Positions 8,794-20,168 of a stretch of DNA of 64,000 nucleotides are shown piece by piece. Each line of letters opens with the position of its first letter. The stretch's first letter is position 1. The position numbers and the translations under genes were made by a program. Under the pieces are notes generated by a model. The model made no database searches and was not told where the DNA came from. It saw only the letters and a list, made by a program, of their open reading frames with translations. The DNA comes from Flavobacterium sp. SUN046 (GTDB lineage: Bacteria > Bacteroidota > Bacteroidia > Flavobacteriales > Flavobacteriaceae): assembly GCF_028867965.1 (NCBI RefSeq), contig NZ_JAPQNT010000003.1, positions 245,732 through 309,731 on the forward strand, read 5' to 3'.

Positions 8794-9231
8794 TTATCTC
8801 AAATACAAACAATGATTATAATAATCAATAATAGCTTTTCCTTGTAACAAAATATCGGCGCCAATAATTCCTTGAACTGGTTTAGCATTGTATTGTTGTA
8901 AAGCTTCATTTACATGCGATAAATCGAAAATCACTAAATGAAATTCTTTGTTTTTCCATTTACCCAATTGTAGGTTGTTATTTTTTGCAATTTGGGTAAA
9001 CATTCCAGTTGCTCCAGCTCCAGCGGCTTTTGTTGATGATTTTCCAGCATTGAGTTGAAATAATGCTACACTTTCAAATCCTACACAGCTATTGCTCGCG
9101 CCAGTGTCTAAAATAAAATTGCCTTTTACTCCGTTTATACTTGCTTTTACAAGTAAATGCTGTGTTTTAGAGACTTTGAAGTTTATTTTTTTGTATTTAT
9201 TTTTCTTTAATATTTTTTGAAAATCTTCCAT
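8794..9231 (-). CDS. Retropepsin-like aspartic protease
   Basis: This 145-residue protein has the aspartic protease signature FILDTGASNSCVG with Asp42, a loop GAGATGMF, and a C-terminal GIIGADIL that fits the retropepsin-like fold found as short single-domain proteins in bacteria. Such proteins act as dimers, so one DTG motif is expected. No signal peptide is visible, which would place it in the cytoplasm unless translation starts further upstream. Its start overlaps the end of the TPR-CHAT gene by 35 bases in another frame, implying coupled translation and a shared role. The substrate is unknown. Confidence 0.75.
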   Translation of the reverse strand: MEDFQKILKKNKYKKINFKVSKTQHLLVKASINGVKGNFILDTGASNSCVGFESVALFQLNAGKSSTKAAGAGATGMFTQIAKNNNLQLGKWKNKEFHLVIFDLSHVNEALQQYNAKPVQGIIGADILLQGKAIIDYYNHCLYLR

Positions 9232-11809
9232 TTATGACAAATTTGAAAAGCAAAAATAAACCAATTAAACCTCCAACAATTGAAATCCAACATAAATAAT
9301 TTGTTGAAGTTTCACTTTCTATTGTTCCGTAATATACCATTGGAGCCCAAAAATAAGGAGATTTTTTAGTATTCGAAATATCAGAATCAGATAAAAAATC
9401 AAGTTTTGCTTTATGATTAGCATCAAAAAAAGAGCTTCCGTCTTTAATGTTCTTATAGAATTTTTCCATGAAAACAGAGGTTGTGTAATCATTAACTTTC
9501 CAAAGTGAAAATAACAGATTTTTAGCTCCAGCCATTTGAAAACCTCGAGAAATACTCATTGCGCCTTCGGCTTTGTACAGTTTTCCTAAACCTGTTTCGC
9601 AGGCGCTTAATACCACTAAATCGGGATTAATATCTAAAGTATAAAACTCTGAATATAGTATATCTTGATCATAAAACTTGATTATTGCCGGACTTTCAAT
9701 ATCGCCAGAATCAGCATGTGTTGAAAGATGAAGTATTGAATAATTTCCTGCATTTAATTTGAAATTATCAAATGTAGCCTGTGATTTACTTAAAAATTTT
9801 CCTTTAAAATTCCTTTGAATTGCTTTCATTTCATCAACCGAATAAGCCAACTCTAAATTGGAATTTTCAAATACTGGAAACACACCCAAAACCGTTTTTT
9901 TAGTATGCTGGAATGGTTTTTCGGCTAAATAAAACGAAGCAGAATTAGCATAACCCACTTTAAAATCATTCAATAAATAATGCATTTTAGCAAAATTAGT
10001 AGTTGTACTTTGCTCAGTAATTAATGCTTCAAATGGTAGAAAATTTAAGATTCCATCGGGAATAATGATGAGGTTTTTGTTAGATTTGTTAATTGGAAGT
10101 TTTAATAAATTAAAAACAGTATTTCCAATATGATTGTATTCTTTTGGGTTTTCAGTTATTGTATTTGAGTCTTTAAAATAATTTATAAACCCATAAAAAA
10201 CAGAATTATTTTTAAAAGCGTCATCAATTTTCAGCAATTTAATAGAATTATTTTCAATTGTGAAAGAATATAATTTTTCAATTCCAGCAAAATAGGAAAC
10301 TAATACAGCCTTGTCTTTTTCTAATTTAGAATAGAGGTTATTTAAGTTAATTTCAGTTTGAATTTCATTTTTATTTGACGTTTCGTTTGATTTTAAAAGC
10401 AACATTAATTCGTTTTGCTTTTTTATAGCATTGTTGATTTTATCAATGTCGGCATAGTTTAATTTTTGCTGTTCTTTGATGATAATGGTGTTCCAATCTT
10501 GCAATTGTTTTCTAATTAATTTTTCTTCTTTGGAAATTAATTTGGAACTAAATTGTTTTAAAACAGATGATTTTGTTATTTCCGAAAGTTGAAATGCTTT
10601 TTCTAAATAAAGTATTTTCTTTTCTTTTTGATATAAATTGTAATAGATTTCGATACACTTTTCAGTACGATTTCGATTCCCAATTTGATGAATGATTTTA
10701 GAATTTTCATAAACCAATAACGATTGAAAAAGTTCTTCAATATAAAAGCAAAGTTGATAACATTCCAATGCTTTTTTTGGTAGATTTTGTTGAGTGTAAA
10801 TTGCAGCTTGTAAATCTAATGCATCTAATAAAACGGTATTGGCAAATAATTTATTTTTGGATGGCAAATGGCCATCATTATCATTGTAATTGTATAGAGT
10901 ATTTTTAAAAGTATAAGTAATATAGCTTATTGCTTTGTCATAATTTTGTTGATTGAAATAAAATAAAGCATGGTCATAGTAGTTTTTCGCCATCGCAATT
11001 TGTCCCAATATTGGAGTTTTACTCAAGTAATTTTCGGCAATTTCAAAACTAGAATTTGCCATTTCATAGTTTTTGTTTTCAAAATAAATTGATGCTAAAT
11101 TTTTATAACAAGTTGCTAATGATAAAGTGTTATTCGATTGTTTTTTATAAATTTTTATTGCTTTTTCAATTTGAATTTTAGCTTTAGTAGTTTCTTTCTT
11201 GATTAGATAATTTGCGCCTAAAGTTGATGCTAAAATTGCTTTTTGAGATTCGGTTAAATTGTCATTTTTCAAAGTATCTTCCAATAATGAAATAGCTAAA
11301 TCGATTCTGCCCGAATTTTGCAAGACGTTGGTTAAATTAACCAGAGCAGACACTTTTAAATCGGTATTTCCGGATTTGTCAGCGATATAAAAGTATTGTT
11401 TGATTGTGTTTTCGGCATTGTCGTAATCGCCTATAATTGTGTAAAGATTTCCGAGCGGTTTTAGGCAATATTCTATAATATCAAAGTCCGATTTAATTTT
11501 ATTTTTATCATAAAGTTGCCATGCTTTTTCATAATTTTTTATGGCATCTTGATAGGCACCAATTTGTTTTTGATAAAATGCTTTGTTACAATTCAAATAA
11601 ATGTAGGCTAACAGCTCTGCTTTGTTTTTTGAAACTTGAATTGTTTTTGAAACACTTTTATCAAATGATTCTAATTTTTTTAAGCTCGCTTCATTTTGAT
11701 TGGCTTGAAAAGCTTCTGTCGCAACATATATTTTTTCTTCTAATGACAAATTAGTACTTTGAGAAAAGGCAAAGTTTGTAATTAGAAAAAGAAGAAATAA
11801 TTTTCGCAT
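9197..11809 (-). CDS. TPR-CHAT protein, periplasmic and membrane-anchored
   Basis: The product is 870 residues, starting at MRKLFLLFLI (the ATG at 11809) and carrying a signal peptide that ends in FAFSQ. Residues about 40-420 are tetratricopeptide-like helical repeats (for example NYDKAISYITYTF, YDNAENTIKQYF). A helical linker leads to a C-terminal CHAT domain, a caspase-like cysteine peptidase fold. The presumed catalytic pair is visible: His698 in LHLSTHADSG and Cys737 in VVLSACETGLG. GAMSISRGFQMAGAKNLLFSLWKV is the usual CHAT continuation. A single membrane helix (GGLIGLFLLFKFVI) near the C-terminus would hold the domain in the periplasm. The stop overlaps the start of the retropepsin gene. 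Activity is likely, but the target is not known. Confidence 0.85.
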   Translation of the reverse strand: MRKLFLLFLITNFAFSQSTNLSLEEKIYVATEAFQANQNEASLKKLESFDKSVSKTIQVSKNKAELLAYIYLNCNKAFYQKQIGAYQDAIKNYEKAWQLYDKNKIKSDFDIIEYCLKPLGNLYTIIGDYDNAENTIKQYFYIADKSGNTDLKVSALVNLTNVLQNSGRIDLAISLLEDTLKNDNLTESQKAILASTLGANYLIKKETTKAKIQIEKAIKIYKKQSNNTLSLATCYKNLASIYFENKNYEMANSSFEIAENYLSKTPILGQIAMAKNYYDHALFYFNQQNYDKAISYITYTFKNTLYNYNDNDGHLPSKNKLFANTVLLDALDLQAAIYTQQNLPKKALECYQLCFYIEELFQSLLVYENSKIIHQIGNRNRTEKCIEIYYNLYQKEKKILYLEKAFQLSEITKSSVLKQFSSKLISKEEKLIRKQLQDWNTIIIKEQQKLNYADIDKINNAIKKQNELMLLLKSNETSNKNEIQTEINLNNLYSKLEKDKAVLVSYFAGIEKLYSFTIENNSIKLLKIDDAFKNNSVFYGFINYFKDSNTITENPKEYNHIGNTVFNLLKLPINKSNKNLIIIPDGILNFLPFEALITEQSTTTNFAKMHYLLNDFKVGYANSASFYLAEKPFQHTKKTVLGVFPVFENSNLELAYSVDEMKAIQRNFKGKFLSKSQATFDNFKLNAGNYSILHLSTHADSGDIESPAIIKFYDQDILYSEFYTLDINPDLVVLSACETGLGKLYKAEGAMSISRGFQMAGAKNLLFSLWKVNDYTTSVFMEKFYKNIKDGSSFFDANHKAKLDFLSDSDISNTKKSPYFWAPMVYYGTIESETSTNYLCWISIVGGLIGLFLLFKFVINGRFSKNIKEK

Positions 11810-11823
11810 GGATTTTTTTATTA

Positions 11824-12005
11824 ACACAAAAGTCACAAAAGTTTTATTGTTTAGGTTTGGTTTAGCACAAAAGTCACAAAAGATTAGTCTTTAATATTTG
11901 TATCTCTTAATTTTTTTCTTTTGTGACTTTTGTGTTAAAAATTATATCAAAAGTCAAGATAGATTTATGTTTAAAATATTATTTTTTTCTTTTGTGATTT
12001 TTGTG
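11824..12005. repeat. Four copies of a CTTTTGTGACTTTTGTG repeat
   Basis: The 202-base gap between the CHAT and PKD genes carries ACACAAAAGTCACAAAAG at 11824-11841, a near copy at 11865-11881, and inverted copies CTTTTGTGACTTTTGTG at 11919-11935 and CTTTTGTGATTTTTGTG at 11989-12005. The two orientations could fold into long hairpins. No promoter could be assigned with confidence. Confidence 0.7.
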
Positions 12006-12011
12006 TTAAAA

Positions 12012-14060
12012 TTAAAACTTCCAAATAGCATAAAACTGCCAATAGTTAAAGTTTTTTTCAAAATTCATGTAGTAACGCGCTCCAAGACTTGGACCAATTC
12101 GTGCAAAACCAAAAGTAACATCTGCAAAAACACTTGTTTGTATTTTTTGAAAATTATCAGTTGTAGCTTTCGAAGAATTATTTTCTTCTAATTGCGGTAA
12201 TTCTTGACCTGGAGGCGGTGTTGCAGCATTTACACCATAATATTTTTTTGTGTTTTGGGATTCTGTTGTTTCGTTTAAAACTAATGAAACTTGCGGGCCT
12301 ACACCAAGACCAATATAATTATTGATATTATATCGAAGCGAAATTGGTACCAAATCGATGCTGTTTCTTGTGATTTTTGATTTGCTTGTAGTTTGTGTAT
12401 TCCCAAAATCATAAGGTCCAGTGCCATTGTTTGATGGAATTGCCGGATTAAAAAGAATTTGTGAAAAAGACGAAACTTGACTAGCACCAGATAAATTGAA
12501 AGTACTATAATAAATTTCTGATTGCCAATAAAAACGGTAAGATTTATAGGGTGATATTGTTAATCCAATAAAATAACCATTCGATTTTTGTTTAGTCGGA
12601 TTCTCATTATTTTGGTCTGTTATTATGTTGTTCAATTTTGTAAAATAGTTATAACCCGATTTTATTCCAATTGAAATACCTGGTTTGAATCTTGTTGTAG
12701 CATAATTCGTAATCACAGGTTCGTTTTTATCAAAGAAAATAGATGTTTTGCTTTTGGTTTTTATCTTATGAAAATCTTTACCAAATTTTAATGAGTATTT
12801 TACAAATCCTTTGGTTGAATCTTTTTCAGTCACATTTTTTTGATTGCTTCCGGGTAAATAAATATTTTTGAAAGTAAAATGAATTTGATTTTTTTTAATG
12901 ATGGTATCGATGCAACTATAAGTCACATTTTCGCCTTTGGGGCAAATCGGGCATTTGGGATAACAATCTACAATTTGCAATGTTTTTTTATCAAACATTT
13001 CAGGAATATCAGTTTCTAAACGAATCGTTCTCGCTGGACCTTCACCGTCATTTTGAAATCGGGTTTTGAAATTTGTTGTTTTAAAACGCACCAATCTATA
13101 ATTGATTAAAGTAGCATTGCTCGACATTTTATTAGGATCATGAGAAGTTACAATTTCCATTTCGAGGGTTTTCTTTTTGTGGTTTTTATAATTTCTGTCT
13201 GGAACGTAAACACCACGCATTTTTACAACAGCGCTTGTGTCTTTGAGCATTTCAGGAGTTGTTTTAAAAGTAAAAAAAACATTTCGAGTTTCTTTGGCAT
13301 CCATATTGTCAAATTCTAAAACTTTAGAATCTGTGAATAATGATTTGCTTTCGGCTAAAGTCAAATCTAAATTTTGATCGTCTTCATCTTCTTTAGAAAA
13401 TCGTAATGGCAAATAATTAGTTTCAGAAGCTATATTTTGATAAGAATTGTTTTTGTCATCGACCATTACAATTCCATTTTCTTGAATTTCTTTTTCGCCA
13501 AAATGTGTTCGGGTTTCTACTAAATCGAAGTTCTTATTTTTGAATTCTTTGTCGTTGTAAAACAGATATAATTTTCCGCTAGCAACATAATCCAATAGGT
13601 TTTCATAACTCAAAATTACAGTAATTTCATCATCTGGAACTGGCTCGCGATTGTGTAATACTTTGAACCCACCTTCGGTTTCAATGGAAGCAATTTCATC
13701 AAATTTATCATCAGTTATTTCGGTAACCGCTACAGTTTTTGGTCGCGTTGTTGGTGGTTTTCCGTTGTCGTAATTATTGGTTACTACAAGATTGACTTTG
13801 TATTCGCCTTTCTTTTTATATACTTTTTTAGGTTCTTTTGCTTTGCTATAACTTCCATCTCCAAATTCCCAAAAATAACTATAACTCGCTGGCGGCGCAC
13901 CTGCAACTTGATTTAATGGTGGTGTTTCAGGTTTTAAAGAAACTTGATTTCCCTTTTTATCATAACCAATTGTGGCTTTGCGTGTAACAGTATCTTTGAC
14001 TTTTGTTTGTGAAAAAGAAATAGAAGTCGTCAATATGAAAAGAAATAGTAATTTTTTCAT
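12012..14060 (-). CDS. PKD-domain protein with C-terminal outer-membrane barrel
   Basis: This 682-residue envelope protein uses MKKLLFLFI at 14060 as the likelier of two nearby ATGs; the signal peptide ends in SISFSQ. A PKD domain lies at about 57-100, with the hallmark YFWEFGDGS. The middle part has repeated beta-sandwich features and DPNKMSSNATLINY, similar in style to the DPND block of the T9SS protein at 6117. It also has a Cys-rich stretch (CYPKCPICPKGE). The last ~230 residues alternate polar and hydrophobic strands and end in an aromatic residue (FYAIWKF), as outer-membrane beta-barrels do. Function is unknown. It may be an outer-membrane partner of the surrounding exported proteins. 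Confidence 0.65.
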   Translation of the reverse strand: MKKLLFLFILTTSISFSQTKVKDTVTRKATIGYDKKGNQVSLKPETPPLNQVAGAPPASYSYFWEFGDGSYSKAKEPKKVYKKKGEYKVNLVVTNNYDNGKPPTTRPKTVAVTEITDDKFDEIASIETEGGFKVLHNREPVPDDEITVILSYENLLDYVASGKLYLFYNDKEFKNKNFDLVETRTHFGEKEIQENGIVMVDDKNNSYQNIASETNYLPLRFSKEDEDDQNLDLTLAESKSLFTDSKVLEFDNMDAKETRNVFFTFKTTPEMLKDTSAVVKMRGVYVPDRNYKNHKKKTLEMEIVTSHDPNKMSSNATLINYRLVRFKTTNFKTRFQNDGEGPARTIRLETDIPEMFDKKTLQIVDCYPKCPICPKGENVTYSCIDTIIKKNQIHFTFKNIYLPGSNQKNVTEKDSTKGFVKYSLKFGKDFHKIKTKSKTSIFFDKNEPVITNYATTRFKPGISIGIKSGYNYFTKLNNIITDQNNENPTKQKSNGYFIGLTISPYKSYRFYWQSEIYYSTFNLSGASQVSSFSQILFNPAIPSNNGTGPYDFGNTQTTSKSKITRNSIDLVPISLRYNINNYIGLGVGPQVSLVLNETTESQNTKKYYGVNAATPPPGQELPQLEENNSSKATTDNFQKIQTSVFADVTFGFARIGPSLGARYYMNFEKNFNYWQFYAIWKF

Positions 14061-14093
14061 AATCATTGGTTTTGGTTAGGAATTATAAAAATA

Positions 14094-14148: not shown

Positions 14149-15192
14149 TTATGGTAATGCATTTATTGCCGCCTCTAGTTGTGCTTGATTTCCTAATGTA
14201 GTTTCTGCTAATGTGAAATTATAAATATCACCCGATTGAACTGTAAAAGCTTTAATTGCATAGCGCCATTGACCGTTATCTTCTGTTACAAAAATTGCAT
14301 GGCAAACTAAACCTATTGGAATTTGTCCGTAATGTTCAGAAAATTGTTGAGTTGCAGTTAAGTATTTATCAAATTTTGCTAAACTATTTCCTTGTCCGTC
14401 ATAATGTAAATAAATTGCTGAGTTTCCTTCATTATAGCCAGATGGAACTGTGGCTAAAAGCTGTGTTCTTGGTCTTGGATCGTTATAAAATCTATCCACA
14501 TTTGTCCAACCAAAACCTGGTAATGCTGCATTGTAAGTACCTGGAGTAATTGTTCCTTGTCCGTTAACTATTACTCCTACGGCTCCAGTTGGTCCAGGAT
14601 CGGTTGCTATCCATCCAAGCATATTGGCTCCAGCTGTTGGTGCTTGCCCAGTCCAAAGTGTCATTGCTGGATTTGGCCCACCAGTTAATGTCGTTGGAAT
14701 TATTAATTGAATTGGTCCAACTGTTGTAAGTTCAACGTTTCCTTGAGTAGCTTTTAAGAAAAATTCACCTCCAGAAATTATCAATCCCATTTGACCATTG
14801 GCTTGCATTCCCATTGTTGTTTTATCAGTTGTTAGCATTTTTCCACCATCAAATACTTCGGCATATTCGATATTTACATTTCCAGTTACTGGATTTCCGT
14901 TTTTTCTTAAATTAGTACCGTTTATTTTAATAACTACACCATTAGTTGATGTAAAAGTAGTTAAGCCATTCTCGGCTACCATTGAAAAATTTTGGGTTAC
15001 ACTTGCTAAAGCAGCATTTTGAAGATTTGAAAATGCTTGAGCAGTTGGTACAATTGGTTCGTTAGCCGAGTTGTCATCATTACTGCAACTTGTTAAAGCT
15101 AAAGTTGCTAAAAATACTAATCCGATGTTTTTTAAATTTTTACTTACCAAGTAATAATTGTTTCTTTTGTTTTCTTGAATTTTTGATTTCAT
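14149..15192 (-). CDS. Lipoprotein, long paralog A
   Basis: This 347-residue predicted lipoprotein has its lipobox LALTSCS with Cys36, after an unusually long N-terminal region (about 22 residues before the hydrophobic core). The mature part has a segment INGTNLRKNGNPVTGNV followed by IEYAEVFDGGKM, which resembles the beta-sandwich repeats of Bacteroidota surface proteins. C-terminal blocks FSEHYGQIP and CHAIFVTEDNGQWRYAIKA are shared with the paralog at 16185. No known family is recognised with confidence. The promoter-like motif at 15299-15328 and two leader hairpins lie upstream, so it is a probable member of the local ECF regulon. Confidence 0.75.
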   Translation of the reverse strand: MKSKIQENKRNNYYLVSKNLKNIGLVFLATLALTSCSNDDNSANEPIVPTAQAFSNLQNAALASVTQNFSMVAENGLTTFTSTNGVVIKINGTNLRKNGNPVTGNVNIEYAEVFDGGKMLTTDKTTMGMQANGQMGLIISGGEFFLKATQGNVELTTVGPIQLIIPTTLTGGPNPAMTLWTGQAPTAGANMLGWIATDPGPTGAVGVIVNGQGTITPGTYNAALPGFGWTNVDRFYNDPRPRTQLLATVPSGYNEGNSAIYLHYDGQGNSLAKFDKYLTATQQFSEHYGQIPIGLVCHAIFVTEDNGQWRYAIKAFTVQSGDIYNFTLAETTLGNQAQLEAAINALP

Positions 15193-15281: not shown

Positions 15282-15298
15282 GTTTTGTTTTATAGTAT

Positions 15299-15328
15299 TA
15301 TATCAATTGTTAATAAAATTTGATACCC
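15299..15328 (-). promoter_or_regulatory. Putative ECF promoter motif, copy 1
   Basis: On the minus strand it reads GGGTATCAAATT, 10 bases, TTGATATA. The layout matches the copies at 16035, 17317, 18678 and 18779, with one base changed in the first block. An AT-rich TATAAAACAAAA follows, as in copies 2 and 3. Confidence 0.65.
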
Positions 15329-15365
15329 TTATTCCTGAATTTTTTTTAGAATTTTTTGATATCTA

Positions 15366-15968
15366 TTAATAGTAAGCAAAATCGATGTAAGGAATTCCTC
15401 TATTTACTAAGGGTCCACCATTTTGATAAAAGTTAGCACCGGTTATTGTCATAATTCCAAAAGATTGAGGAAAACTAATTAATGCTCCTGGTTGATTTAC
15501 TGCACGTCCAATTAGATTTGAAAAATTGTTACCAGCATTTGTTAAAAGCATTGTTCTTCTTATTGTATAAGATTGATTGGCAATAATTGGAGTAGGAGTT
15601 ATTGACACATAACTGGTGTTTGCTGATGAAAATACGTGATTTCCAGAATATACGATTGTATTAGAGTTGTTGTCTATGATTTCCATTTTATATGGAACAG
15701 CAGCTATTGCGAGTTGACTTTGATAGCCAATACTACAAATGGTTTTGTTTTGAGAAAATTGAAATGTATATTCGTGAATTTCTGTGTCAAAAGTGTTAGT
15801 GTTTTGATGACCTGGAAGAGTAACCACATTAGCATAAAGCTGATTAAAAATGGTGTTTGTAGAACTACAAGCAGGAACTGGAATCGGTGCTGGACTTGGA
15901 CTTGAGCAACTTGCAAATATTAATCCTATTACGATTAAAAGTCCGGTGTTTTTAAATGTTGTTTTCAT
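15366..15968 (-). CDS. Lipoprotein, short paralog A
   Basis: This 200-residue predicted lipoprotein has Cys21 in IFASCSS, followed by a Pro/Ser-rich tether (SPSPAPIPVPA). The body is a single all-beta-looking domain that shares ordered motifs with the protein at 17370: EYTF, KTIC.IGYQ, SYTI.RT, GR, GIM.IT..NFY, GGP and GIPYID. Function is unknown. It pairs with the long lipoprotein downstream, as its paralog does. The ECF-type motif at 16035-16064 and one leader hairpin stand upstream. Confidence 0.7.
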   Translation of the reverse strand: MKTTFKNTGLLIVIGLIFASCSSPSPAPIPVPACSSTNTIFNQLYANVVTLPGHQNTNTFDTEIHEYTFQFSQNKTICSIGYQSQLAIAAVPYKMEIIDNNSNTIVYSGNHVFSSANTSYVSITPTPIIANQSYTIRRTMLLTNAGNNFSNLIGRAVNQPGALISFPQSFGIMTITGANFYQNGGPLVNRGIPYIDFAYY

Positions 15969-15995
15969 GATTTCTATTATTTTAAAAGTTGTTTT

Positions 15996-16016
15996 AATCT
16001 GAACTCGTTTCAGATT
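15996..16016 (-). promoter_or_regulatory. Leader hairpin of short lipoprotein A
   Basis: This is a perfect inverted repeat AATCTGAA, 5 bases, TTCAGATT. Its edge is 19 bases from the TTGATATA block, the same distance as at 17278-17298. Confidence 0.55.
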
Positions 16017-16034
16017 GTTTTTGTTTTATATTAA

Positions 16035-16064
16035 TATATCAACTTCATTAATAATTTGTTACCC
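16035..16064 (-). promoter_or_regulatory. Putative ECF promoter motif, copy 2
   Basis: On the minus strand it reads GGGTAACAAATT, 10 bases, TTGATATA, then TATAAAACAAAAAC. It lies about 67 bases from the start codon of the lipoprotein at 15366-15968. Confidence 0.7.
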
Positions 16065-16131
16065 TAAATGTTTATATTATTTTTAAATTTAATCTAAAAT
16101 GTTTCACTTGTTTTTAACAATAAAAGACAAA

Positions 16132-16168
16132 ATAAAAAAGCGATGAATAAATCACCGCTTTAAAAATA
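16132..16168 (-). terminator. Terminator after lipoprotein B
   Basis: AAAGCGATGA pairs with TCACCGCTTT and is followed by a T run on the minus strand. It is a close copy of the terminator at 14094-14129, so the duplication includes the 3' end of the unit. Confidence 0.65.
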
Positions 16169-16184
16169 TTTAACTAACTACTAT

Positions 16185-17219
16185 TTAAGGTAATCCATTT
16201 ATTGCTGCCTCTAGTTGTGCTTGATTTCCTAATATAGTTTCTGAAAATGTAAAATTATAAACATCACCAGTTTGAACGGTAATAGCTTTAATTGCATATC
16301 TCCATTGGCCATTATCTTCGGTTACAAAAATTGCGTGACATTGTAATCCTACAGGAATTTGTCCGTAATGTTCAGAGAATTGTTGTGTTGCAGTTAAATA
16401 TCGATCGAATTTTGCTAATTGAGTTCCAAGTCCATCATAATGTAAATAAATGGCACAATTTGAATCATTATAACCAGTTGGTACAGTTGCAAGTAATAAA
16501 GTTTTAGGCCCAGTTACTCCAGCAAATCTATCAACGTTAGTCCATCCAAATCCAGTGAAACCTACATTGTATGAATCATTTGAACCTTGTGGTCCACCAA
16601 AATTTAACGCGCCATTTGTACCTGGAGTTGGAATCCAAGCAAGCATATTTGATGTAGCAGTTGGCGCTTGACCTGTCCAAAGTTGCATTCCAGTATCTGT
16701 TGCTGCACCGGTTAAACTCGATGGAATTTTAACTTGAATTGGTGTAACAGTTGTTAAATCAACACCGCCTTGTCTTGCTTGAATAAAGTATTCTCCACCA
16801 GATTTCATTGCTTCCATTTGTCCGCTTCCATTTAATCCCATTGTAGTTTTGTCAGCAGTTAACATTTTTCCACCATCAAAAACTTCAGCATATTCAACAG
16901 TTACAGTACCAGTTACAGGCGCTCCATTTTTTCGTAATCCTGCACCATCAATTTTTATTGTAACTCCTTTTGCCGATGTTAAAGTAGTAATACCGCTTTC
17001 TGCTGTTAAAGTAAAGTTTTGTGTTACACTGGCTAAAGCGGCATTTTGAAGATTCGAAAATGCTTGCGCTGTTGGAACAATTGGTTCGTTAGCCGAGTTG
17101 TCATCATTACTGCAACTTGTTAAAGCTAAAGTTGCTACAAATACTAATCCGATGTTTTTTAAATTTTTACTTACCAAGTAAAAATTGTTTCTTTTGTTTT
17201 CTTGAATTTTTGATTTCAT
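16185..17219 (-). CDS. Lipoprotein, long paralog B
   Basis: This 344-residue lipoprotein is a tandem duplicate of the gene at 14149-15192. The first ~60 residues are almost identical to that paralog, including the long N-terminal region and the lipobox LALTSCS with Cys36. The two also agree strongly in the C-terminal third (ATQQFSEHYGQIP, EDNGQWRYAIKA) but diverge in the middle. Upstream are two leader hairpins and an ECF-type promoter motif at 17317-17346. It is probably surface-exposed or periplasmic; its function is unknown. Confidence 0.75.
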   Translation of the reverse strand: MKSKIQENKRNNFYLVSKNLKNIGLVFVATLALTSCSNDDNSANEPIVPTAQAFSNLQNAALASVTQNFTLTAESGITTLTSAKGVTIKIDGAGLRKNGAPVTGTVTVEYAEVFDGGKMLTADKTTMGLNGSGQMEAMKSGGEYFIQARQGGVDLTTVTPIQVKIPSSLTGAATDTGMQLWTGQAPTATSNMLAWIPTPGTNGALNFGGPQGSNDSYNVGFTGFGWTNVDRFAGVTGPKTLLLATVPTGYNDSNCAIYLHYDGLGTQLAKFDRYLTATQQFSEHYGQIPVGLQCHAIFVTEDNGQWRYAIKAITVQTGDVYNFTFSETILGNQAQLEAAINGLP

Positions 17220-17235
17220 AATTTCTAGGTTTTTA

Positions 17236-17298
17236 TCTGAGTTTGTTTCAGAATGTGTTAATTGAATTTGTTAATTTAATCTGAATCCATTTCAGATT
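17236..17298 (-). promoter_or_regulatory. Leader hairpins of lipoprotein B
   Basis: A perfect AATCTGAA, 5 bases, TTCAGATT lies at 17278-17298, and a weaker TCTGA/TCAGA pair at 17236-17252. The arrangement corresponds to 15210-15281. Confidence 0.5.
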
Positions 17299-17316
17299 AT
17301 TTTTGTTTTATACTAT

Positions 17317-17346
17317 TATATCAACTGCTATTAAAATTTGTTACCC
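17317..17346 (-). promoter_or_regulatory. Putative ECF promoter motif, copy 3
   Basis: On the minus strand it reads GGGTAACAAATT, 10 bases, TTGATATA, then TATAAAACAAAAA. It directs transcription toward the lipoprotein at 16185-17219. Confidence 0.7.
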
Positions 17347-17369
17347 CAATTTTGAAAGTTTTTTTATTT

Positions 17370-18017
17370 TTATTGAAATACAATATCAATGTAGGGAATT
17401 CCATAGTTAGGAACCGGTCCACCAGTACCATAAAAGTTAGAACTAGTTATTCCCATAATACTTCCGGCTAAAGTTGCTGCAGTTGGTAATGGCCCAGAAT
17501 TGAATCGACATATTCTTCCTGTAGTATTAGAAATATTGCCTAAATAATTATTTACAGTTCTCTTTATGGTATAAGTATGTCCAGATACTAATGTTATTGG
17601 TGATCCTGTGGGTGTATAATAATCTGTAAATGCAGAATTGAAAGAACGATTTTCAGTATAAATTGGAACTGTTGTGCTTACAGAGTTTTCAAATATCGAA
17701 ATCGTATAAGGAGTAGTTGCAGATGTTAACGCGGCTTTACCTTGATACCCAATTTGACAAATAGTTTTAGTTGAAAACATGTTAAAGGTGTATTCATGCG
17801 TCACCAAATCCATAGTTGTATAATCATCATACAAAGAATTGCTTCCAAGTGTAGTAAAATAAATGTTTTGAAAATCAGTTCCCGATGTCGAGCATGAAGT
17901 TGGTACTGGAGCCGATGTTGATGGACTACAACTTGTAATTGTTAGACCTATCATAAATAATACTGCAATTTTTTTAATTTGAGATTCTAAATTAAAAGTG
18001 TTTTTTAAAAGTTTCAT
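17370..18017 (-). CDS. Lipoprotein, short paralog B
   Basis: This 215-residue predicted lipoprotein has Cys30 in TITSCSP and a Pro/Ser/Thr tether, and is homologous to the 200-residue protein at 15366. Shared landmarks in order are THEYTF, KTICQIGYQ, PY.I, TYTIKRT, GN.SN, GR, GIT..NFY.TGGP and YGIPYID. The start region AGAAATTATG matches those of its neighbours. Unlike them, it has no clear copy of the ECF-type motif directly upstream, so it may be read from the promoters in front of the 18149-18625 gene. Confidence 0.7.
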   Translation of the reverse strand: MKLLKNTFNLESQIKKIAVLFMIGLTITSCSPSTSAPVPTSCSTSGTDFQNIYFTTLGSNSLYDDYTTMDLVTHEYTFNMFSTKTICQIGYQGKAALTSATTPYTISIFENSVSTTVPIYTENRSFNSAFTDYYTPTGSPITLVSGHTYTIKRTVNNYLGNISNTTGRICRFNSGPLPTAATLAGSIMGITSSNFYGTGGPVPNYGIPYIDIVFQ

Positions 18018-18148
18018 AATTTCTATTTTTTAAAATGGATTAGAAAAGTATAGTGCAAAACTCATTCAAATTTTTTATTTGAGATACCGTCGTTTAACTA
18101 TAATTTTGTGTTTGATTAACTATTTTTTTATCCGTTGTTTAACGGTTT

Positions 18149-18625
18149 TTATTTTTTAATATCAGTACTTTGAATGATTTTGTAGCTCAAAATGTCTCCA
18201 GTACTTACTAATTCAATCATTCTTTTAGCTTGACTTTCAGAGCTTGAAAATCCTTTGGCAGAACCGGTATTAGTTGTTACTTCCCAAAAATAAAGTCTTA
18301 CTTTATCAGATGCTACTACAGCTTCTTTTACTTGAAAGAAACTTTCGATTTTTCGGTCAAGAACTACTTCACCAACAGTTACTAATTCTATCATTCTTTG
18401 AGCTTCTTCAAGAGAGTTTGCAGTTCCAGAATAGTTTCCGTGTGTTGTTTTTACATTCCAATCATAAACTTCTTTAATTTGATCTCTTGTTAGAGTTGCA
18501 GTTGTTTGCTTCGCCAGTTCGCTGAAGCTCGGGTCGATTATGTTTGAAGTTGTTGTTACTTCTTTAGCATTGATATTTGAAAATGATAATGCTACGATGG
18601 CTAATGTTAAAATTGATCTTTTCAT
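18149..18625 (-). CDS. Small exported protein with an internal duplication
   Basis: This 158-residue protein has a signal peptide ending in SNINA. After it come two repeats of about 40 residues: DWNVKTTHGNYSG...EEAQRMIELVTVGEVV and FWEVTTNTGSAKG...SQAKRMIELVSTGDIL. There is no lipobox, so it is probably free in the periplasm or secreted. It is the first gene leftward of the sigma factor, with two ECF-type motifs upstream, which makes it the best candidate for a direct target or ligand of that system. No family is recognised. Confidence 0.65.
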   Translation of the reverse strand: MKRSILTLAIVALSFSNINAKEVTTTSNIIDPSFSELAKQTTATLTRDQIKEVYDWNVKTTHGNYSGTANSLEEAQRMIELVTVGEVVLDRKIESFFQVKEAVVASDKVRLYFWEVTTNTGSAKGFSSSESQAKRMIELVSTGDILSYKIIQSTDIKK

Positions 18626-18677
18626 GATTTCTAGTATTTAATGTTTTTAATAATTGTTTGATTTTGTTTTCTATTGT

Positions 18678-18707
18678 TATATCAATTAGCTTTTTAATTT
18701 GTTACCC
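18678..18707 (-). promoter_or_regulatory. Putative ECF promoter motif, copy 4
   Basis: On the minus strand it reads GGGTAACAAATT, 10 bases, TTGATATA. It lies about 53 bases from the start of the gene at 18149-18625. Confidence 0.7.
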
Positions 18708-18711
18708 ATTC

Positions 18712-18732
18712 AATCTGAATTTATTTCAGATT
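18712..18732 (-). promoter_or_regulatory. AATCTGAA/TTCAGATT inverted repeat between two promoter motifs
   Basis: This is a perfect 8-base inverted repeat with a 5-base spacer. It lies downstream of motif copy 5 and just upstream of copy 4, so it could be a leader element of the longer transcript or an operator. Confidence 0.5.
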
Positions 18733-18778
18733 CTTTTTTAAAGTAATTTCAAATTCCAATTGAAGAACGTTTCATAAC

Positions 18779-18808
18779 TATATCAACACAATGATTAATT
18801 TGTTACCT
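18779..18808 (-). promoter_or_regulatory. Putative ECF promoter motif, copy 5
   Basis: On the minus strand it reads AGGTAACAAATT, 10 bases, TTGATATA. It points away from the sigma gene, which starts 44 bases to its right, and toward 18149-18625. It may give a second, longer transcript. Confidence 0.6.
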
Positions 18809-18851: not shown

Positions 18852-19433
18852 ATGGCAGATAAAAATCTTCATCCAGACCAAATGTATATTGATGGATTGG
18901 TGCAAAATAATTCAAGCATCATTCAGTCTATATATAAGAAGTTCGTGCCCAAAGTCAAAAACTACATTCGAACCAATAGTGGCGATGACGATCAGGCGCA
19001 AGATGTTATTCAAGAAGTGCTAATAACTATTTATAATCAAGCAAAAACTAACGGATTGCAACTAACTTGTCCGTTTGATGCTTATTTTTTTCTGCTTTGT
19101 AAACGCCGTTGGCTGAATGAATTAAAAAAATCTTCTAACAAAGAGGTAACATTACAAGATGATAGTGTATCTATAGATGAACCCATTCAGGAAATGGCAT
19201 TTCAAACCGAAATTTTTGACGAGAAACAATCACTATTTGATGAAATGTTTCAAAAATTAGGAGAAAAATGTCAGGAAGTTCTAAAGTTGAGTTTTGTAAC
19301 AAAAACAATGGAAGAAGTTGCCGAAAAACTGAATGTAACTTATGGTTATGTGCGTAAGAAAAAATCACTTTGTACAGGTCAATTAACCGAAATGATTCAA
19401 CAATCACCTAGATTTCGATCTATAAATTACTAA
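18852..19433 (+). CDS. ECF-type RNA polymerase sigma factor
   Basis: This 193-residue sigma-70 family protein has only regions 2 and 4. Region 2 covers about 13-95 (IIQSIYKKFVPKVKNYI, DDQAQDVIQEVLITIY, AYFFLLCKRRWLNELKK). Region 4 covers about 130-185 and ends in the helix-turn-helix MEEVAEKLNVTYGYVRKKKS. It lacks regions 1 and 3, as alternative ECF factors do. The TPR membrane gene follows 3 bases after the stop, the usual place for an anti-sigma factor. The five GGGTAACAAATT-N10-TTGATATA motifs immediately to the left have ECF-like -35/-10 spacing and are its likely targets. It has no recognisable copy of the motif facing its own start. Confidence 0.9.
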   Translation: MADKNLHPDQMYIDGLVQNNSSIIQSIYKKFVPKVKNYIRTNSGDDDQAQDVIQEVLITIYNQAKTNGLQLTCPFDAYFFLLCKRRWLNELKKSSNKEVTLQDDSVSIDEPIQEMAFQTEIFDEKQSLFDEMFQKLGEKCQEVLKLSFVTKTMEEVAEKLNVTYGYVRKKKSLCTGQLTEMIQQSPRFRSINY

Positions 19434-19436
19434 GTT

Positions 19437-20168
19437 ATGAACGAAGAAAATTACATAGCATTTGAAAGTTATCTCAATAACGAAATGCTATCCGACGAAA
19501 AAATAATCTTTGATGAAAAGTTGCAAAACGATGCTCAATTCAAAGCTGATTTCAATTTGTATAAAGAAACAACGTCGTTTATCGAAAACAAATTTGATTC
19601 CAAAACAATTGATTTTAAAGCTAATTTAAAGTCAATTTCTGAAAGTCATTTTTCTTCTTCAGAAAGACAAACGAAATCAAAAGTCATTCAGTTTAAAACT
19701 TTTTATTATGCAGTTGCAGCATCGGTTGCAATTTTACTAGGAACTTGGTTTTTCATGCAAAATAGCATTCCGCAATATGGCGATTACAACCAACATGAAA
19801 GCGCTAATTTACTTGAACGCGGTAGCGTAATTAAAAATTTGAAAGCAGCTCAAGATGCATACAATGCCAAAAAATATAAAGTAGCTATCGAAAATTTTGA
19901 AATTGTATTGAAGGAATATGACAAACCCGAAGTTCGTTATTTCTATGGAATTTCACTTTTGGAAGAAAATAAATTTGCAGATGCGGAAGCAACATTTACC
20001 AAATTACAATCAGGAACTTCAATATATAAAGACAAAGCAACTTGGAATTTAGCCTTATCAAAATTGAAACAAAAACAATACGAAGAATGTAAAACGTATT
20101 TAAAACAACTTCCAGAGGACGCTGAAGATTATGAAAAGGCACAGAAATTGTTGGATAAGTTGGATTAA
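19437..20168 (+). CDS. One-pass TPR membrane protein, possible anti-sigma factor
   Basis: This 243-residue protein is in an operon with the sigma factor. Residues 1-88 are soluble and acidic and would be cytoplasmic (AFESYLNNEMLSDEKIIFDEKL resembles the small helical N-termini of Bacteroidota anti-sigma-like proteins). One membrane helix lies at about 89-107 (FYYAVAASVAILLGTWFF). The rest, about 125-243, is TPR-like (AAQDAYNAKKYKVAIENFE, RYFYGISLLEENKFADAEATF) and would be periplasmic. There is no zinc-binding ZAS motif or FecR domain, so the anti-sigma role is inferred from position and topology. Confidence 0.65.
   Translation: MNEENYIAFESYLNNEMLSDEKIIFDEKLQNDAQFKADFNLYKETTSFIENKFDSKTIDFKANLKSISESHFSSSERQTKSKVIQFKTFYYAVAASVAILLGTWFFMQNSIPQYGDYNQHESANLLERGSVIKNLKAAQDAYNAKKYKVAIENFEIVLKEYDKPEVRYFYGISLLEENKFADAEATFTKLQSGTSIYKDKATWNLALSKLKQKQYEECKTYLKQLPEDAEDYEKAQKLLDKLD

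Follow-up and report, generated by a model that had tools for sequence, protein, structure and literature searches.

A bipartite promoter-like motif beside an ECF sigma factor gene in Flavobacterium sp. SUN046 and its predicted envelope regulon

This report concerns a 64,000-nucleotide stretch of the Flavobacterium sp. SUN046 genome (contig NZ_JAPQNT010000003.1, positions 245,732 to 309,731; hereafter, the window) and the gene cluster around an extracytoplasmic function (ECF) sigma factor encoded within it. Five copies of one bipartite motif lie next to the sigma gene, and the motif recurs around the same gene in related flavobacteria. From these sequence comparisons, we consider it very likely that the five sites are promoters, with GGGTAACAA as the -35 and TTGATATA as the -10 element, that are read by the neighboring ECF sigma factor.

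The sigma locus and its five promoter-like sites

The core of the locus is arranged as follows (aa, amino acids; nt, nucleotides; TPR, tetratricopeptide repeat; +1, transcription start, predicted from an invariant purine at position 33 of the sequence logo described below).

19437..20168, plus strand: likely anti-sigma factor, 243 aa, with TPR; starts 3 nt past the sigma stop
18852..19433, plus strand: ECF-type sigma factor, 193 aa, regions 2 and 4 (Pfam Sigma70_r2, Sigma70_r4)
18779..18808, minus strand: promoter-like copy 1, AGGTAACAAATT-N10-TTGATATA, the AGGTAAC variant; predicted +1 near 18773
18678..18707, minus strand: promoter-like copy 2, exact consensus; predicted +1 near 18672
18149..18625, minus strand: 158-aa protein with signal-like N-terminus, the first target gene, in no family; homologs in 11 of 80 related loci
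17370..18017, minus strand: lipoprotein, 215 aa; paralog of the 200-aa lipoprotein (38% identity)
17317..17346, minus strand: promoter-like copy 3, exact consensus, then TATAAAACAAAA; predicted +1 near 17311
16185..17219, minus strand: lipoprotein, 344 aa; 73% identical to the 347-aa lipoprotein
16035..16064, minus strand: promoter-like copy 4, exact consensus, then TATAAAACAAAA; predicted +1 near 16029
15366..15968, minus strand: lipoprotein, 200 aa, with lipobox; paralog of the 215-aa lipoprotein
15299..15328, minus strand: promoter-like copy 5, the GGGTATC variant, then TATAAAACAAAA; predicted +1 near 15293
14149..15192, minus strand: lipoprotein, 347 aa; family present in 74 of 80 related loci

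All five sites have the form GGGTAACAAATT-N10-TTGATATA on the minus strand, with exactly 10 bases between the blocks in each and a one-base variant in two, just as the original prediction had described them. Its further claims about the layout also hold: TATAAAACAAAA follows the copies at 15299, 16035 and 17317 at one common offset (TAGAAAACAAAA follows the copy at 18678 instead), the sigma gene is divergent from the sites, and the copies face genes for exported proteins, namely lipoproteins with a lipobox and the 158-aa protein with its signal-like N-terminus (by eye). With up to three mismatches allowed, 0.01 sites were expected per window, and none of 100 shuffles reached five.

For four of the five genes nearest the sigma gene, a site ends 53-107 nt ahead of the start. 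Copy 2 gives a predicted leader of about 47 nt up to the ATG at 18625, and copies 1 and 2 are predicted to act on the 158-aa gene as tandem promoters, with copy 1 the distal one. The gene of the 215-aa lipoprotein has no motif of its own; it lies 131 nt past the 158-aa gene and probably shares its transcript.

The 193-aa protein carries regions 2 and 4 only and has the length of about 190 aa that characterizes ECF sigma factors. It matches Sigma70_r2 (28.9 bits; cut-off 24), Sigma70_r4 (24.1 bits; cut-off 24.1) and the ECF model TIGR02937 (59 bits; cut-off 42.9). Its score against the Bacteroidetes sigma-70 subfamily TIGR02985 (65.2 bits) falls under the curated cut-off of 126.4, and we do not assign it there.

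Conservation of the motif around the sigma gene

Related loci were gathered by the sigma protein alone and not by the motif. Of 248 places in the genome collection that encode a relative, from Flavobacterium or Flavobacteriaceae records, the best 80 were kept (L092-L171). F. johnsoniae, a species used as a laboratory model, also has the sigma gene, in strain CI04 (L154). We scanned these for the core GTAAC-Nk-TTGATATA with k from 8 to 23, on both strands and both sides of the sigma gene. On the strand that runs away from sigma, there are 173 exact cores with k = 15, compared to three single hits (0 or 1 each) for all other spacings, strands and sides together. The original interpretation of GTAAC and the spacing as an ECF -35/-10 is thus upheld at the sequence level, in loci that show one spacing and one orientation.

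When one mismatch is allowed, 79 of the 80 loci have at least one site near sigma (199 sites in total) and none has a site pointing at the sigma gene; direct positive feedback through the motif is therefore not expected. The exception, L153 (the locus of genome G025), keeps GGTAACAA at three sites in the corresponding position, and each of these has an altered -10. A similar joint drift of the -10 occurs in L272 (genome G114), where both locus sites read TTGATTTA; that all sites of a locus drifted together fits one protein reading all of them.

A logo built from 192 distinct sites shows GGGTAACAA and TTGATATA as nearly invariant blocks on either side of a variable spacer. Position 33, 6 nt past TTGATATA, is A (0.82) or G (0.18) only, and this purine is likely the +1. 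If so, GGGTAACAA would lie at about -35 to -27 and TTGATATA at about -13 to -6, which gives the two blocks near -35 and -10, the fixed spacing and the orientation toward genes that define a sigma-dependent promoter. Across the 80 loci, 78 pairs of sites lie less than 200 nt apart; a distance of 66-74 nt, approximately one polymerase footprint, is the most common (30 pairs). We read these close pairs as predicted tandem promoters.

Operators, too, look like conserved bipartite blocks before co-regulated genes, and the motif could accordingly bind an activator or repressor while the housekeeping sigma factor transcribes the genes. We consider this improbable. The motif is neither a palindrome nor a direct repeat (by eye); it keeps a single spacing and a single orientation relative to genes, and the purine where +1 is expected is fixed; and, among the locus proteins searched (five of which have no family), the sigma factor alone has a recognized DNA-binding domain. 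A scan for TAnnTTTG, the sigma-A -7 box (PMC9723704), found none before the target genes; it also found none before the sigma gene or two further genes of the locus (CHAT and 684-aa, see below), so the scan says little.

Distribution across genomes

The original prediction proposed scanning the whole genome and comparing relatives that carry the sigma gene. The many random copies that it named as refuting are not seen: in 3,373,788 bases of the SUN046 genome there are seven matches with up to three mismatches, compared to two for a reversed control. Five of the seven form the cluster described above (on our contig C23), one with a single mismatch lies on another contig (C31), and one with three mismatches lies inside an open reading frame (ORF) on C3.

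Across relatives, the motif tracks the sigma gene. Of 150 genus genomes, 51 have the latter (E<1e-60; the G172 copy is a fragment at a contig end), and three more carry a truncated sigma fusion. Exact GGTAAC-N15-TTGATATA is found in 49 of the 51 sigma genomes (141 sites) versus seven of the 99 others (seven sites; Fisher p 2.6e-29). Among these seven, the G012 and G023 sites fall within coding frames, the site of G164 has no gene after it, and those of G090 and G138 resemble the G012 sequence. In an order-wide set of 395 genomes, the sigma factor (E<1e-40) occurs in 26. Five of the 26 belong to other genera, and one of the five to a different family. The locus carries the motif in all five, in G285 with one mismatch at best; in G425, and in G285 with one mismatch, a site also stands before a relative of the 684-aa gene.

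The promoters could also be real and read by another sigma factor, with the neighboring one a bystander. Flavobacteria do have several ECF sigma factors (seven in F. psychrophilum, according to the available part of PMC9723704), and genome G118, in which no ortholog was detected, keeps a site before an RCC1-type gene. The 49/51 versus 7/99 distribution speaks against a bystander, as do the remaining sigma-like matches in 60 relatives, which reach 29% identity at most, and we judge this explanation to be very unlikely. Finally, the two pairs of lipoprotein genes are clear duplicates, and the motif accompanies three of these four copies, but a functionless by-product of duplicated cassettes and shared descent is hardly credible given nearly invariant blocks around a poorly conserved spacer, sites before unrelated genes on other contigs, sites still present in genomes of other genera whose sigma is 54-65% identical, and the lack of any locus site in three genomes that lost sigma region 4.

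Target genes away from the locus

We sorted the 141 exact sites by reading the site list and counted 24 as distant; a G172 site that precedes locus genes on a separate contig (C44) was assigned to the locus. In the sigma genomes, no distant site falls inside an ORF of at least 120 aa. We favor promoters read by the neighboring sigma factor because loci fetched by sigma show one spacing and orientation, because the motif tracks sigma, and because the distant sites lie outside ORFs. Polymerase carrying this sigma factor would be the enzyme that uses the motif.

The distant copy in the SUN046 genome (on C31) lies 30 nt before the gene of an RCC1-repeat protein with a type IX secretion system (T9SS) tail (Pfam RCC1, T9SS tail), and RCC1-repeat proteins follow distant sites in two other genomes as well. 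In eight genomes the target is an L,D-transpeptidase (Pfam YkuD for the one member tested; the others by likeness). Three look-alike proteins of 245-250 aa, two relatives of the 347-aa lipoprotein, one 200-aa lipoprotein, an 864-aa protein with a T9SS tail, and others besides complete the set. No gene for T9SS machinery was recognized among the 24 targets, few of which were searched against Pfam. In total, 22 of the 24 are predicted to be exported (21 of 23 by a crude signal-sequence rule, plus the SUN046 copy by eye). As controls, the rule was applied to ORFs that follow the TPR gene in the 80 loci, of which it accepts 125 of 528, and to ORFs of the window that do not belong to the locus, of which it accepts 16 of 44.

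Two of these targets have further features. The L,D-transpeptidase genes (L087, L202-L206, L214, L217, L218) have a strongly conserved leader of 155-160 nt that contains a short upstream ORF (MAISQHLNKI...) as well as a second conserved block; no Rfam match was obtained for four of these loci. At L224 (G172, contig C241), an exact site lies about 30 nt before a gene for a small peptide with Cys; the gene after it is radical SAM-like (by eye). The peptide is possibly a peptide natural product under the same promoter.

The TPR partner and natural sigma fusions

In 79 of 80 loci, a gap of -4 to 13 nt separates the TPR gene from the end of the sigma gene, and the 80th locus ends within the sigma gene. 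Such an adjoining, coupled position is expected for the gene of a class I anti-sigma factor. A structural model of the SUN046 protein (69 sequences; mean predicted local distance difference test score, pLDDT, 82.6; predicted template-modeling score, pTM, 0.53) places helices at residues 3-13, 19-31, 33-52 and 55-73, then a helix at 89-109 that is predicted to span the membrane, and then the TPR domain, which resembles YbgF and BamD in a fold search. Class I anti-sigma factors begin with a short helical bundle followed by a membrane helix. We propose that the 243-aa TPR protein is probably the anti-sigma factor of this sigma. Its sole match to an anti-sigma model is NF047528, at 18.3 bits, far under the cut-off of 200.

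Four genomes carry a natural fusion (G072, L230; G100, L229; G119, L231; and G356, L256) in which sigma region 2 is in frame with the membrane/TPR part, without sigma region 4 and without the first part of the partner. The fusion has a ratio of nonsynonymous to synonymous substitution rates of about 0.1 between G100 and G072, as expected under purifying selection. At the loci of G072, G100 and G119, no site with up to one mismatch is present over 16 kb and no lipoprotein of the locus family was recognized by eye; these genomes also lack the CHAT protein and any relative of the 684-aa protein at the thresholds used. The G356 locus (over 3.4 kb) retains one match with two mismatches.

Co-inherited and neighboring genes

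Beyond the lipoproteins, the locus continues on the minus strand with three genes.

12012..14066, minus strand: PKD / DUF7619 / DUF7849 protein, 684 aa, with signal-like N-terminus
9197..11836, minus strand: TPR-CHAT protein, 879 aa, with signal-like N-terminus and C-terminal hydrophobic helix; His/Cys motifs kept
8794..9231, minus strand: retropepsin-like aspartic protease, 145 aa, a neighbor

The first two travel with the sigma gene. The 684-aa protein (E<1e-60) is found in 50 of the 150 genus genomes and the CHAT protein (E<1e-100) in 49, in each case only in genomes with sigma; G097 is the one sigma genome without the former, and G097 and G154 lack the latter. These searches score only the best candidates per genome, and weaker relatives may occur elsewhere. 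Within the 80 loci, the TPR gene is present in 79, the 684-aa protein in 77, the lipoprotein family in 74 and CHAT in 72. Of the 18 absences, 13 are at loci cut by a contig end and five are not (CHAT in L122 and L136; the lipoprotein in L112, L130 and L156).

The 879-aa protein is a CHAT protease by its Pfam match (E 4.3e-44), and His706 and Cys745 are invariant in all 70 aligned sequences (69 locus orthologs and the window protein). The 69 orthologs mostly have a hydrophobic N-terminus (62/69) and a C-terminal hydrophobic helix (68/69). We read the C-terminus of the 684-aa protein as barrel-like, a putative outer-membrane barrel. The aspartic protease is probably outside the system because it is kept in the three fusion loci where the system has been lost.

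The four window lipoproteins form two families (347/344 aa and 200/215 aa). In a model of the 347-aa member, residues 59-238 are moderately like eukaryotic GAIN/ZU5 domains and are followed by a transthyretin-like sandwich. Separately from the promoter-like sites, a palindrome, AATCTGAA-N5-TTCAGATT, occurs in the window at 15996-16016, 17277-17299 and 18712-18732 and also genome-wide (when up to two mismatches are allowed, each strand has 88 matches, versus 20 in a control).

A predicted envelope response

We propose the following model. The TPR protein would hold the sigma factor inactive at the inner membrane, with its four-helix N-terminus in the cytoplasm and its TPR domain in the periplasm, until an envelope signal frees the sigma. 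Transcription would then start at the invariant purine 6 nt past TTGATATA. The freed sigma factor would turn on a small regulon, mostly of surface proteins, as an envelope response: the adjoining lipoproteins and, in trans, T9SS-tailed proteins, lipoprotein paralogs and the L,D-transpeptidase.

Based on co-inheritance and predicted topology, the exported CHAT protein and the PKD/barrel-like protein may tentatively be considered the input that frees sigma. A fuller and more doubtful version is a split envelope-spanning chain, in which the PKD/barrel-like protein would be the surface sensor, CHAT, as an exported caspase-like protease anchored in the membrane, would cut the periplasmic TPR domain of the anti-sigma, and the freed sigma would drive the GAIN/ZU5-like lipoproteins and wall enzymes.

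Several observations weigh against parts of this interpretation. The counts above are not independent trials, since the genomes share ancestry and the set of 80 loci overlaps with that of 150 genomes. Two sigma genomes, G025 and G114, lack the exact motif, and both keep near versions at the locus. Conversely, G118 has an exact site 30 nt before its RCC1-type gene, at a contig end and with no sigma detected, and G072, with the sigma fusion only, still has its transpeptidase site; both look like real leftovers. A shorter pattern with two mismatches is unspecific and matches 37 of 60 relatives. The targets at L223 and L224 are not clearly exported, and the former has no clean start. Lastly, the fold matches of the full-length partner are all taken up by its TPR part, which leaves the N-terminus unrepresented.

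Relation to known systems

The PorXY-SigP system of Porphyromonas gingivalis reportedly links an ECF sigma factor to surface export, and the present locus likewise ties a Bacteroidota ECF sigma to exported surface proteins. In the promoter map of F. psychrophilum, six classes are described: SM1-3 for sigma-A, SM4 for sigma-54, SM5 with TAnnTTGY, and SM6 with CGT at -10, the last located upstream of T9SS genes and also of an ECF/anti-sigma pair (PMC9723704, as far as its available text extends). The motif described here is not among the six in that text. It differs from SM6 in that the -10 is TTGATATA with a GTAAC -35, and the logo contains no CGT box at -10; hence, we do not place it in the SigP/SM6 class.

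The closest sigma/anti-sigma arrangement that we encountered in the phylum is Das/Dma of Bacteroides (PMC13088901, in the portion available), where an ECF21 sigma shares an operon with a membrane anti-sigma of the dual membrane-spanning type and controls an envelope phenotype, much as proposed for the present pair. The Dma anti-sigma bears a C-terminal beta-barrel; our partner ends in TPR instead and was rejected as a Dma family member on that basis, and the PKD domain and barrel-like end reside on a separate co-inherited protein. In addition, das2 is strongly upregulated when the anti-sigma is deleted (PMC13088901, same portion), whereas no site points at the sigma gene here. Class I anti-sigma factors such as RseA and RskA have a short helical cytoplasmic N-terminus, one membrane helix and an outside sensor (PMC7406223, available text), a layout to which the predicted helix pattern of the partner may correspond; the anti-sigma model match of the partner is far under cut-off. 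According to the same portion of that survey, a class I partner lies nearby for only 6% of Bacteroidetes ECFs (PMC7406223).

The CHAT protein points to a further comparison. Craspase, the type III-E CRISPR TPR-CHAT protease that acts with Csx30, is reportedly linked to a sigma factor, and the present locus similarly connects a TPR-CHAT protease with one. The two differ in that no CRISPR gene was found among the locus proteins searched (Pfam) and in that the CHAT protein here carries the hydrophobic N-terminus and C-terminal helix noted above. If the split chain is correct, sigma control through a TPR-CHAT protease would have a counterpart on the chromosome that does not involve CRISPR.

Significance

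The original prediction called the promoter and regulon previously undefined, and this stands among open-licence papers searched by title and abstract, a search that leaves most subscription papers uncovered. It had not seen that no copy points at sigma, that a likely anti-sigma gene lies next to it, that members of the regulon are distant in the genome, and that two exported proteins travel with the system. Overall, the locus represents a probable, unstudied control circuit that is readable from sequence. It offers a complete, testable promoter for an ECF sigma factor, including the predicted +1, together with a list of candidate targets. The flavobacterial promoter map resolved one ECF class only (PMC9723704, available part), and the sigma factor described here reaches a third of the sampled genus (51/150 genomes) as well as neighboring genera. 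Co-inheritance also links a CHAT protease with this particular sigma circuit, and the fusion genomes provide natural comparisons in which to view it.

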